From Marilutibacter spongiae (GTDB lineage Bacteria > Pseudomonadota > Gammaproteobacteria > Xanthomonadales > Xanthomonadaceae), in assembly GCF_014145325.1 (NCBI RefSeq), contig NZ_JACHTF010000009.1, positions 1-64,000 of the forward strand: a stretch of 64,000 nucleotides of DNA, written 5' to 3'. Each line of letters begins with the position of its first letter. Positions within the stretch are counted from its first letter, which is position 1. This document shows, in pieces, positions 215 through 4,399 of this stretch. Made by a program: the position numbers and the translations under genes. The notes under the pieces were generated by a model. It saw only the letters and a list, made by a program, of their open reading frames with translations, did no database searches and had not been told where the DNA came from.

Positions 215-2101
215 TCAAGGCGTGTCGATCCACAGGTTGTAGCTGCCGCTGCCGGAGTACGACAGCACGCGCCAGTAGTAGTAACCGGCCGAACCGTTGT
301 AGTTGACCGACTCCTCGCTGGTGGGCGTGGTCGACTCGGCGACCTTGCTCCAGCCCGAGCCGTTCCAGCGGTACAGCTCGAGGTCGAAGTCGGTGCCGGC
401 CGGACCCTGCAGCCAGCCCTTCTGCGCACCCGCGCCGGACTGGTAGTAGGTGCCGTTGGGCTGCACGGCGGAGTTGCCCGTGCCCGACAGCGAACCACTG
501 TACTTGTCGCAGCCCGTGCAGGGCTCGCCACCGCCGCCACCGGTGCTGTAATCGGCGACCAGGGACAGGCCGTTGTAGGCGCTGTAGCCGCGCAGCATCA
601 CGTGCCAGGTGCCGGCCTGCGGGCTGGCGAAGGTGCAGCTCTCGGCATTGCCGCTCTTGTACGGACGGCAGTCGTAGGTGCTGGTGGTCGGCGCCGAGCC
701 GAAGCGGACGTACAGGTCGGCGTCGCCGCTGCCGCCGCTGGTGGTGAAGCTCAGGTTGCTGGCACCGGCCGGGACCGTCAGGGTGTAGCGGGTCTCCGAG
801 CCCTGCGCGCCGTTGACGCTGACCGGCACGCCCTTCTGCAGCGTGCCGGGCGTCGGATCCGGATCGGGATCCGGGTCAGGGTTGCCGCCGCCGAAGACGC
901 TGTACAGCAGCAGGTTCGGCGAGCCGGTCTTGGCATCGCTGACCTTGTTCGGGGTCGCGTTGTTGACGATCGCGCTGGTGACCTGGCTCGGCGAGGCGTT
1001 CGGGTTGCCGGCCAGATACAACGCGGCGACGCCGGCGACGTGCGGCGAAGCCATCGAGGTGCCACTGATGGAGTTGGTCGCCGTGTTGCTGGTGTTCCAG
1101 GTCGAGGTGATCGACGAGCCCGGGGCATAGATGTCCAGGCAGGTGCCGTAGTTCGAGAACGAGGAACGCGCGTCCGAGGACGTGGTCGAACCGACGGTGA
1201 TCGCGCTGGCGGCGCGGGCCGGCGAGTAGTTGCAGGCGTTGCCATTGTCGTTGCCCGCGGCTACGACCACGGTGACACCCGCATTCACCATGCGGGCGAC
1301 CGCCTGGTCGGTGGTCGACGACGCGCCGCCGCCCAGGCTCATGTTGGCCACGGCCGGCTTGACGTGGTTCTGGGCGACCCAGTCCATGCCGGCGATCACG
1401 CCGGAGTTGCTGCCCGAACCGTCGCAGCCCAGTACTCGGACCGGATGCAGCTTCACCGCCTTGGCCAGGCCATAGGTGGCGCTGCCGACGGTGCCGGCGA
1501 CGTGGGTGCCATGGCCGTTGCAGTCGTTGGTGCCGTTGCCGTCGTTGATCGCCGAGTAGCCGCCGCTGACGCGGCCGCCGAAGTCGTTGTGGCTGGCACG
1601 GATGCCGGTGTCGATGATGTAGGCGTGCACGTTGCTCGCCGTGGTGTCGTAGCTGTACGTGCCGCTCAGCGGCAGGTTGCGCTGGTCGACGCGATCGATG
1701 CCCCAGGTCGCGTTGTTCTGCGTCGCCGAGATGTGCATGTAGCCATCTTCCTCGACGTAGGCGACGCGGTCGTCGGCGAGGATCTGCGCCAGCGCCTGGT
1801 CGTCGGCCTCCACCACGAAGCCGCGCAGGGCGCTCTGGTAGGTGCGCACGACGTTGCCGCGACCGCCACGATTGCCCTTGTTGCGGGCAAAGGACTGCGC
1901 GACGGCGGCGACGCTGGGCCGGTTCGCCGTCTGGGCCTCGAAGCCCATGCTGGCGGCATCGTCCTTGAGCACGACGATGTAGCGGCCTTCGATCGGCGCC
2001 TTGGCGAAGCGGAGCTCCGCATCGGCGGCGGTCGCGTGCCCGGCTCCGAGCATCAGCACGGCGCCGACGCTGGCGGCAAGAATGGTTTGTCTACGATTCA
2101 C
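215..2101 (-). CDS. Secreted S8 (subtilisin/proteinase K-like) serine protease, copy A
   Basis: This is an extracellular serine endopeptidase made as a pre-pro-protein of 628 residues. I chose the GTG at 2101 because a GAGGG ribosome site precedes it and the signal peptide (about 1-26, with an early RR) follows at once. An I9-type inhibitor propeptide spans about 37-125. The catalytic triad is Asp164 (YIIDTG), His197 (NGHGTH) and Ser349 (GTSMASPH), with the oxyanion Asn284. A Gly/Asp-Pro linker near 404-418 leads to a PPC-type beta domain (about 420-510) and, after a Gly-rich linker, a second PPC-like domain to the end. Such C-terminal domains are usually removed after secretion. The gene is the downstream member of a tandem pair with the copy at 2513-4399. 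The two centres are identical at the DNA level over 548 bp, while the ends differ. Confidence 0.95.
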   Translation of the reverse strand: MNRRQTILAASVGAVLMLGAGHATAADAELRFAKAPIEGRYIVVLKDDAASMGFEAQTANRPSVAAVAQSFARNKGNRGGRGNVVRTYQSALRGFVVEADDQALAQILADDRVAYVEEDGYMHISATQNNATWGIDRVDQRNLPLSGTYSYDTTASNVHAYIIDTGIRASHNDFGGRVSGGYSAINDGNGTNDCNGHGTHVAGTVGSATYGLAKAVKLHPVRVLGCDGSGSNSGVIAGMDWVAQNHVKPAVANMSLGGGASSTTDQAVARMVNAGVTVVVAAGNDNGNACNYSPARAASAITVGSTTSSDARSSFSNYGTCLDIYAPGSSITSTWNTSNTATNSISGTSMASPHVAGVAALYLAGNPNASPSQVTSAIVNNATPNKVSDAKTGSPNLLLYSVFGGGNPDPDPDPDPTPGTLQKGVPVSVNGAQGSETRYTLTVPAGASNLSFTTSGGSGDADLYVRFGSAPTTSTYDCRPYKSGNAESCTFASPQAGTWHVMLRGYSAYNGLSLVADYSTGGGGGEPCTGCDKYSGSLSGTGNSAVQPNGTYYQSGAGAQKGWLQGPAGTDFDLELYRWNGSGWSKVAESTTPTSEESVNYNGSAGYYYWRVLSYSGSGSYNLWIDTP

Positions 2102-2452
2102 GATACTACCCTCACTGGTTGTATTTGGATCCGCAGTTTGTGGATCACTGCGGTGTGATGGATCGCATGTACGCAGCACAGTTCCCTTGGACTACCACGG
2201 TATCCCCGTGTTGACGATGGCCGGTCAATAGTGGCTGCGGACACGTTCAATCGAGCAATGGATGCCTCGAGTGACTGGGTCCCCTGCGTATGTCGGTGGA
2301 TCTCACTGCCTGCAGTCTCCTCGTGATCGCCATGACCGGTCGATCCGGGGACGACTTGGACTCCGCGCACGTTGGGTTCCGCTCCTTCGGGCATGCGCGG
2401 GATTCGGGAAAAGCCTTCGGACCGAGGTCGGGTGCAGTGCATCTGCGATGAT
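2102..2452. other. Intergenic region between the two S8 protease genes
   Basis: No gene is supported here. The last 20 or so bases before copy A (its ribosome site) match those before copy B. A dyad TTGAC-N8-GTCAA lies at 2211-2228, and its minus-strand half gives a TTGACC -35-like hexamer with no convincing -10. A small CACGG/CCGTG hairpin lies just beside it. A separate promoter for copy A is therefore possible but unproven. Confidence 0.4.
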
Positions 2453-2484
2453 CTGGAAATGGGCCCCGGCGGCTGCCGGGGCCC
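2453..2484 (-). terminator. Intrinsic-type terminator of the second S8 protease gene
   Basis: A 10-bp perfect GC-rich stem (2461-2470 with 2475-2484) closes a GGCT loop and is followed on the minus strand by ATTTCC. The stem resembles the hairpin after copy A, so it was probably duplicated with the gene. The T tract is weak. Confidence 0.5.
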
Positions 2485-2512
2485 GCATCGACTGCAGGAA
2501 GCGGCTCGACCG

Positions 2513-4399
2513 TTACGGCGTGTCGAGCCAGAGGTTGTAGCTGCCGCTGCCGGAGTACGACAGCACGCGCCAGTAGTAGTAGCCGGCCGCGCCGTTGTAG
2601 TTGACCGACTCCTCGCTGGAGGGCGTGGTCGACTCGGCGACCTTGCTCCAGCCGAAGCCGTTCCAGCGGTACAGCTCCAGGTCGAAGTCGGCCCCGGCCG
2701 GACCCTGCAGCCAACCCCTCTGCGCGCCTGCGCCGGACTGGTAGTAGGTGCCGTTGGGCTGCACGGCGGAGTTGCCCGTGCCCGACAGCGAACCGCTGAA
2801 CTTGGTGCAGCCGGTACAGGGTTCGCCGCCACCGCCGCCGGTGCTGTAGTCCGCCACCAGCGCCAGGCCGTTGTAGGCGCTGTAGCCGCGCAGCATCACG
2901 TGCCAGGTGCCGGCCTGCGGGCTGGCGAAGGTGCAGCTCTCGGCATTGCCATTCCGGTACGGGCGACAGTCGTAGGCACTGGTGGTCGGGGCCGAACCGA
3001 AACGCACGTACAGGTCGGCGTCGCCGCTGCCGCCGCTGGTGGTGAAGCTGAGGTTGCTGGCGCCGGCCGGGACCGTCAGGGTGTAGCGGGTCTCCGAGCC
3101 CTGCGCGCCGTTGACGCTGACCGGCACGCCCTTCTGCAGCGTGCCGGGCGTCGGATCCGGATCGGGATCCGGGTCAGGGTTGCCGCCGCCGAAGACGCTG
3201 TACAGCAGCAGGTTCGGCGAGCCGGTCTTGGCATCGCTGACCTTGTTCGGGGTCGCGTTGTTGACGATCGCGCTGGTGACCTGGCTCGGCGAGGCGTTCG
3301 GGTTGCCGGCCAGATACAACGCGGCGACGCCGGCGACGTGCGGCGAAGCCATCGAGGTGCCACTGATGGAGTTGGTCGCCGTGTTGCTGGTGTTCCAGGT
3401 CGAGGTGATCGACGAGCCCGGGGCATAGATGTCCAGGCAGGTGCCGTAGTTCGAGAACGAGGAACGCGCGTCCGAGGACGTGGTCGAACCGACGGTGATC
3501 GCGCTGGCGGCGCGGGCCGGCGAGTAGTTGCAGGCGTTGCCATTGTCGTTGCCCGCGGCTACGACCACGGTGACACCCGCATTCACCATGCGGGCGACCG
3601 CCTGGTCGGTGGTCGACGATGCGCCGCCGCCCAGGCTCATGTTGGCCACGGCCGGCTTGACGTGATTCTGGGCGACCCAGTCCATGCCGGCAATCACGCC
3701 GGAGTTGCTGCCCGAACCGTCGCAGCCCAGTACGCGGACGGGGTGCAGCTTCACCGCCTTGGCGATGCCGTAGGTGGCGCTGCCGACGGTGCCGGCGACG
3801 TGGGTGCCGTGGCCGTTGCAGTCGTTGGTGCCGTTGCCGTCGTTGATGGCCGAGTAGCCGCCGCTCACGCGGCCGCCGAAGTCGTTGTGGCTGCCGCGGA
3901 TGCCGGTGTCGATGATGTAGGCGTGCACGTTGCTCGCCGTGGTGTCGTAGCTGTACGTGCCGCTCAGCGGCAGGTTGCGCTGGTCGACGCGGTCGATGCC
4001 CCAGGTTGCGTTGTTCTGCGTCGCCGAGATATGCATGTAACCGTCTTCCTCGACGTAGGCGACGCGGTCGTCGGCGAGGATCTGCGCGAGCTCGTCGTCA
4101 TTGGCCTCCACCACGAAGCCGCGCAAGGCGCTCTGGTAGGTGCGCACGACGTTGCCGCGTCCGCCGCGGCGGCTCTTGTTGCGGGCGAAGGACTGCGCGA
4201 CGGCGGCGACGCTGGGACGGTTCGCGGTCTGGGCTTCGATGCCCAGGCTGGCGGCATCGTCCTTGAGTACGACGATGTAGCGGCCTTCGATCGGTGCCTT
4301 GGCGAAGCGGAGTTCGGCTTCGGCGGCGCTGGCGTGTCCGGCGCCAAGAAGCAAAGCGGCGCCGACGCTCGCGGCGAGAATGGTCTTTCTGCGATTCAC
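2513..4399 (-). CDS. Secreted S8 (subtilisin/proteinase K-like) serine protease, copy B
   Basis: This is a paralogue of the protease at 215-2101 with exactly the same length (628 residues from the GTG at 4399). It has the same layout: signal peptide, I9-type propeptide, Asp/His/Ser catalytic domain, Pro-Asp linker and two PPC-like domains. The GTG sits behind the same GAGGG ribosome site as in copy A. Differences cluster in the propeptide (LGIEAQ for MGFEAQ, NKSRRGG for NKGNRGG, ANDDE for ADDQA) and in the last 180 residues. The catalytic domain is almost unchanged. It is the upstream gene of the pair and has its own terminator, so the two are probably transcribed separately. I see no lost catalytic residue in either copy, so both should be active. 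Confidence 0.95.

Follow-up and report, generated by a model that had tools for sequence, protein, structure and literature searches.

Two diverged tandem S8 protease genes of Marilutibacter spongiae share a 557-bp identical tract, most simply read as recent gene conversion

The window analyzed here, 64,000 bp in length, comprises bases 1-64000 of one contig in a 52-contig, 3.63-Mb draft assembly of Marilutibacter spongiae. At the start of this contig lie two genes, A and B, arranged as direct tandem repeats 2298 bp apart, and the contig extends 214 bp beyond gene A. Both genes are predicted to encode secreted, proteinase K-like S8 proteases, an assignment that agrees with the I9 propeptide, the S8 domain and the Asp-His-Ser motifs present in each. 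The Pfam domains of gene B are the same three as those of gene A (I9, S8 and PPC); the C-terminal part of gene A beyond the PPC domain gave no match in Pfam or NCBIfam. The closest solved structures by sequence were the proteinase K-like entries 8c4z, 2b6n and 5wsl and aqualysin I (4dzt), all of which match the catalytic domain (residues 136-414 of P0001). Whereas these matches end at residue 413-414, A and B add the PPC domain, and A also the unnamed C-terminal domain. Non-coding sequences were compared by BLAST as well. When the intergenic stretch between B and A was compared with the stretch before B, only the last 24 bp upstream of the start of A matched, with little beyond, and the 3′ flanks of the two genes did not match. 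The features of the locus, and of related loci discussed below, are listed in Table 1.

Table 1. Coordinates of the S8 protease pair, its parts and related cassette-bearing genes. Positions are those of the window unless a locus is named.
Feature	Position	Strand	Remarks
Gene A, predicted secreted S8 protease	215..2101	-	GTG 2101 to stop 215; 628 aa; domain order: I9 propeptide, S8 catalytic domain, PPC domain, unnamed C-terminal domain
Gene B, tandem paralogue of A	2513..4399	-	GTG 4399 to stop 2513; 628 aa
Identical tract in gene A	765..1321	-	557 bp; complete codons for residues 261-445
Identical tract in gene B	3063..3619	-	557 bp
C-terminal cassette of gene A (PPC + unnamed domain)	215..889	-	first part inside identical tract
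C-terminal cassette of gene B	2513..3187	-	
Intergenic stretch between B and A	2102..2512	-	
Gene A 3′ flank to contig end	1..214	-	own inverted repeat
M4/M28 cassette stretches	L084:5366-6033 and 7772-8439		contig C31
S1 trypsin-like protease	L083:7681-9678		contig C39

When the two genes were aligned at the offset of 2298, no difference was found within the tract. An earlier note on this DNA had described a 548-bp identical tract at 774-1321; the identity and the end at 1321 were confirmed, but the tract starts at 765 and is 557 bp long. That note was also right that differences begin at both edges, but they do so thinly at first (1322, 1367 and 1394 on one side; 764, 752 and 707 on the other). 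The first differing sites on either side are 764 and 1322, and the differences previously placed at 760 and 773 were misreadings, the nearest real ones being at 752, 764 and 1322. Among 1884 aligned coding sites, A and B differ at 103, all of which are outside the tract (103/1327 there), with 58/780 in the 5′ part and 45/547 in the 3′ part. The next-longest identical run is 95 bp. If the 103 differences were evenly spread over the 1884 sites, a 557-bp run would have a probability of ∼2e-14, in line with the uneven spread of changes that had been remarked upon. Silent third positions differ outside the tract, as had also been observed: third-position differences number 42/260 in the 5′ part and 31/183 in the 3′ part, compared with 0/185 in the tract. 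Along the gene, dS between A and B is 0.25, 0 (in the tract) and 0.27.

The tract covers the AAGND and GTSMASPH motifs, which we take to hold the oxyanion Asn and the catalytic Ser, respectively, and the Pro-Asp linker, as originally reported; it also takes in the first part of the PPC domain. Neither of the motifs DTGI and GHGTHVAG falls within it. Outside the tract, dN/dS is ∼0.12-0.13, which is ordinary purifying selection, and no sign of selection for the tract itself was found. The A and B proteins differ at 26/628 residues, with 0 in the four catalytic motifs examined. Neither this count nor the dN/dS lends support to the suggestion that divergence of the propeptides and C-terminal domains could split specificity or maturation.

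The length of the identical run was then evaluated by a GENECONV-like shuffle test (10000 shuffles), using seven of nine aligned sequences and excluding the distant sequences G2b and spong. When all sites were considered, the longest concordant run of A and B covered 194 of 720 polymorphic sites and was reached in 0/10000 shuffles (largest, 104); when silent sites were considered, it covered 76/234 and was again reached in 0/10000 shuffles (largest, 58). Three between-species pairs were tested, and none had a comparable run. For the two copies of Lysobacter penaei (P1 and P2), the test was significant with all sites (2/10000), but not with silent sites (7791/10000). Conservation of the tract among relatives was also measured. 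Between species, dS in the tract was 0.50, 0.53 and 0.44 for winA-penP2, winB-penP1 and winA-maris, respectively; low tract divergence in orthologues, which the earlier note had named as a sign of constraint, was therefore absent. Moreover, the tract of gene A was 72-86% identical to seven other sequences, with third positions 60-73% identical in 7/7, and the two copies of L. penaei differ at 46/557 tract sites. An RNA element in the tract was considered and rejected, the sole Rfam match in the window at gathering score being a tRNA at 63490-63562.

At the same locus, L. penaei carries a tandem S8 pair (P1 and P2), with a LysR-type gene adjoining, as in the window, and DNA polymerase I beyond P2. 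In G002, the locus holds a single S8 copy, flanked by a LysR-type gene and an rRNA operon; another copy is located elsewhere in that genome. In L. maris and L. chinensis, one S8 copy is visible, adjoining the LysR-type gene and near a contig end; the contig end of L. chinensis matches the 5S gene region of G002 (93 bp at 90%). The far side of the S8 locus varies by species, being an rRNA operon in G002 and DNA polymerase I in L. penaei; in the window, the contig stops after 214 bp.

Across the two species having the pair, the S8 genes group by genome and not by position: in a quartet of coding sites, 151 join A to B and P1 to P2, and 8 and 7 support the other two groupings. Positional orthology in the coding part (A with P2, B with P1) thus left no signal (8 vs 7 sites). 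Coding identity is 92-93% within the L. penaei pair, compared with 83-88% between species. In the upstream flanks, identity is 66.3% for P1-P2, 64.8% for B-P1 and 61.8% for B-P2; the closest pair was P1-P2 in 1331/2000 bootstraps, B-P1 in 614 and B-P2 in 54, and the tree instead joined B with P1 at 0.643. Because the flanks of P1 and P2 are hardly closer to each other than those of B and P1, with coding parts 92-93% alike, these comparisons favor an old pair whose coding parts would have been homogenized. Given that positional orthology is no better represented among the coding sites than its alternative, and that the P1-P2 flanks were the closest in most bootstraps, the S8 genes may instead have been duplicated independently in the lineage of the window genome and in L. 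penaei. The flanks of A and B themselves are too diverged for dating their duplication. At the distant tandem S8 loci L022, L030 and L031, the longest repeat matches were 81, 75 and 67% alike, respectively, so that homogenization does not extend strongly to tandem S8 copies in general. L030 comes from a metagenome-assembled genome of Lysobacter sp. with several S8-like copies; here, stretches of 251 and 269 bp (at 2906-3171, 6804-7054 and 9296-9564) are 89-90% alike, compared with 75% for the longest copy-to-copy match, and may represent local exchange.

The C-terminal cassette (∼220 residues, comprising the PPC domain and the unnamed domain) was also found in three other proteases of the window genome, namely an S1 (trypsin-like) protease on contig C39 and the neighboring M4 and M28 proteases on contig C31. 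The catalytic domains of the M4 and M28 proteases belong to different Pfam families, and their cassettes differ at 2/636 aligned sites. The stretch matched by BLAST, which extends past the cassette alignment at both ends, spans 668 bp and contains 9 differences, perfect identity in it extending over at most 349 bp. The M4 and M28 genes are neighbors in L. penaei too; its two cassettes differ at 14/639 sites, and its 668-bp stretch contains 15 differences. Between the two species, the M4/M28 cassettes are 86-87% identical and the catalytic parts 82-83%. In a cassette quartet with L. penaei, the 74 informative sites all grouped by genome, with 0 for the orthologue grouping and 0 for the crosswise one. 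Whole-gene duplication therefore cannot explain the M4/M28 pattern; repeated exchange between neighbors can. The presence of the same neighbors in both genomes speaks for an M4/M28 duplication older than the species split. Judged from these sequences, homogenization of neighboring genes recurs in the window genome, and the homogenized M4/M28 cassettes imply that such loci undergo the process repeatedly, without any need for a function of the S8 tract itself. We regard the M4/M28 case as the weightier of the two, with unrelated catalytic domains joined to cassettes that, in each of two genomes, are near-identical but differ by 13-14% from one genome to the other. It also calls for caution, in that trees and orthology calls from the cassette-bearing proteases of the genus can be distorted, and draft contigs can end in cassettes. 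Contigs of G001 and G006, two further genomes of the genus, appear to stop within such a cassette (L098:1501-1806 and L101:1-151), and the DNA beside these ends matches M28-adjacent DNA of the window genome (92 and 86%, respectively, over ∼1.5 kb). These contig ends likely are assembly breaks at the M4/M28 repeat, which are to be expected because near-identical repeats break assemblies.

The tract, its lack of constraint and its departure from even divergence are direct observations. The best reading of them, and one in which we have considerable confidence, is recombination between the tandem copies, most simply recent gene conversion. This is what the earlier note had proposed, and it is borne out by the dS of 0 in the tract compared with 0.25-0.27 outside, by the lack of conservation of the tract in relatives, and by shuffles that never reach the observed run. 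Under gene conversion, the tandem genes for proteinase K-like secreted proteases would exchange sequence by homologous recombination. In the latest event, ∼557 bp or somewhat more would have been copied from one gene to the other; the copied part would comprise the second half of the catalytic domain, the linker and the first part of the PPC domain, and divergence would persist in the propeptides, in the half with Asp and His, and at the C-terminal end. The step would be a non-reciprocal conversion (RecA-type recombination), with either copy as the donor. Among the 103 differing sites beyond the tract, a state found in at least 4 of 5 other sequences is carried by A at 30 and by B at 19, and the remaining 54 gave no clear call. 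The pair would predate the split from L. penaei and would have been homogenized repeatedly in both lineages.

The same pattern is left by a cycle of unequal exchange, in which an in-gene crossover yields three copies and a second crossover restores two, one of them a mosaic gene. Tandem direct-repeat arrays expand and shrink, A and B are repeats of this kind, and relatives show a single copy at the locus (with one more elsewhere in G002; at a contig end in L. chinensis and L. maris). However, such a cycle needs two events where one suffices, and the M4 and M28 genes share the cassette only, such that a crossover would fuse unlike genes, yet their cassettes are homogenized. We therefore consider unequal exchange unlikely, although it has a better claim than the explanations that follow. 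It is improbable that true differences within the tract were lost by collapse in a short-read assembly. The assembly is a draft of 52 contigs and the S8 pair lies near a contig end, but, by reasoning, a tandem direct repeat leaves a single linear path through the assembly graph, and divergence like that flanking the tract would place ∼43 differences in 557 bp, with no long identical run for collapse. By the same reasoning, an artifact could hide only a few isolated differences. A young duplication, at first wholly identical, with divergent sequence later imported into one copy on both sides of the tract, would suit the within-genome grouping (151 vs 15 sites), but both imports must end at the tract, dS is equal on its two sides, and the non-coding flanks of A can scarcely be aligned with those of B; we deem this very improbable. 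Finally, strong constraint on the protein or RNA, for which no support was found (Rfam gave no hit there at gathering score), has virtually no chance of being correct, because third positions are only 60-73% identical, between-species dS in the tract reaches 0.44-0.53, and the L. penaei copies differ within it.

Exchange by the cassette of gene A over longer distances was examined with the S1 protease on C39. In the PPC half, gene A and this protease differ at 10/284 sites (96.5% identical), compared with 54/370 (85%) in the remainder (Fisher 1e-6). The same contrast, albeit weaker, was seen for B with the C39 S1 protease (4e-4) and for A with the S1 protease of L. aestuarii (5e-4), and the two S1 orthologues compared with each other lacked it (Fisher 0.88). 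The S8-S1 run length was reached in 81/10000 shuffles, and the cassette site patterns with L. penaei were 26:16:3 for A and 22:16:4 for B. Cassette exchange between the distant S8 and S1 loci is thus a possible lead rather than a result. Tentatively, and with more doubt than conviction, one may suppose that recurrent ectopic conversion keeps the cassette uniform per genome across the S8, S1, M4 and M28 proteases, and that the cassette serves them as a common, exchangeable module for export or substrate binding, with the S8 tract as one recent event.

Gene conversion between bacterial paralogues is of a known kind, and A and B offer a clean example, in which the conversion tract covers part of two protein-coding genes standing in tandem in a bacterium. 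The rRNA operons of E. coli are RNA genes that, unlike A and B, are dispersed and strongly constrained. In a study of those operons, conversion is reported to homogenize paralogues within a genome, as here (PMC8022953). Concerted evolution in prokaryotes, as treated in PMC6053082, likewise makes within-species paralogues closer than orthologues; that paper names recurrent gene conversion as the driving force, weighs independent duplication for a tandem pair, and treats 26 genes, among them fla and mtrA. In the present genome, the tract is partial, and the second case links genes with unrelated catalytic domains. A word search of the PMC6053082 text found a single "protease", within the title of a reference, and no "peptidase". 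The tandem immunity genes esaG/tipC resemble A and B in that tandem paralogues recombine through shared blocks of similarity; they form many-gene strings of varying number that serve toxin immunity, whereas here two protease genes are homogenized (PMC9484751). Among papers judged by title and the start of the abstract, none on gene conversion in these proteases, their domain or family, or on tandem or duplicated Lysobacter serine proteases dealt with the present case.

Two other repeats were observed in the window. A perfect 7-bp repeat (AATCAGC) is present in 13 copies at 17207-17298, between two convergent large ORFs. At 53461-54085, a 130-bp unit occurs in 4.8 tandem copies with 91% matches and, by eye, the unit resembles an imperfect inverted repeat.
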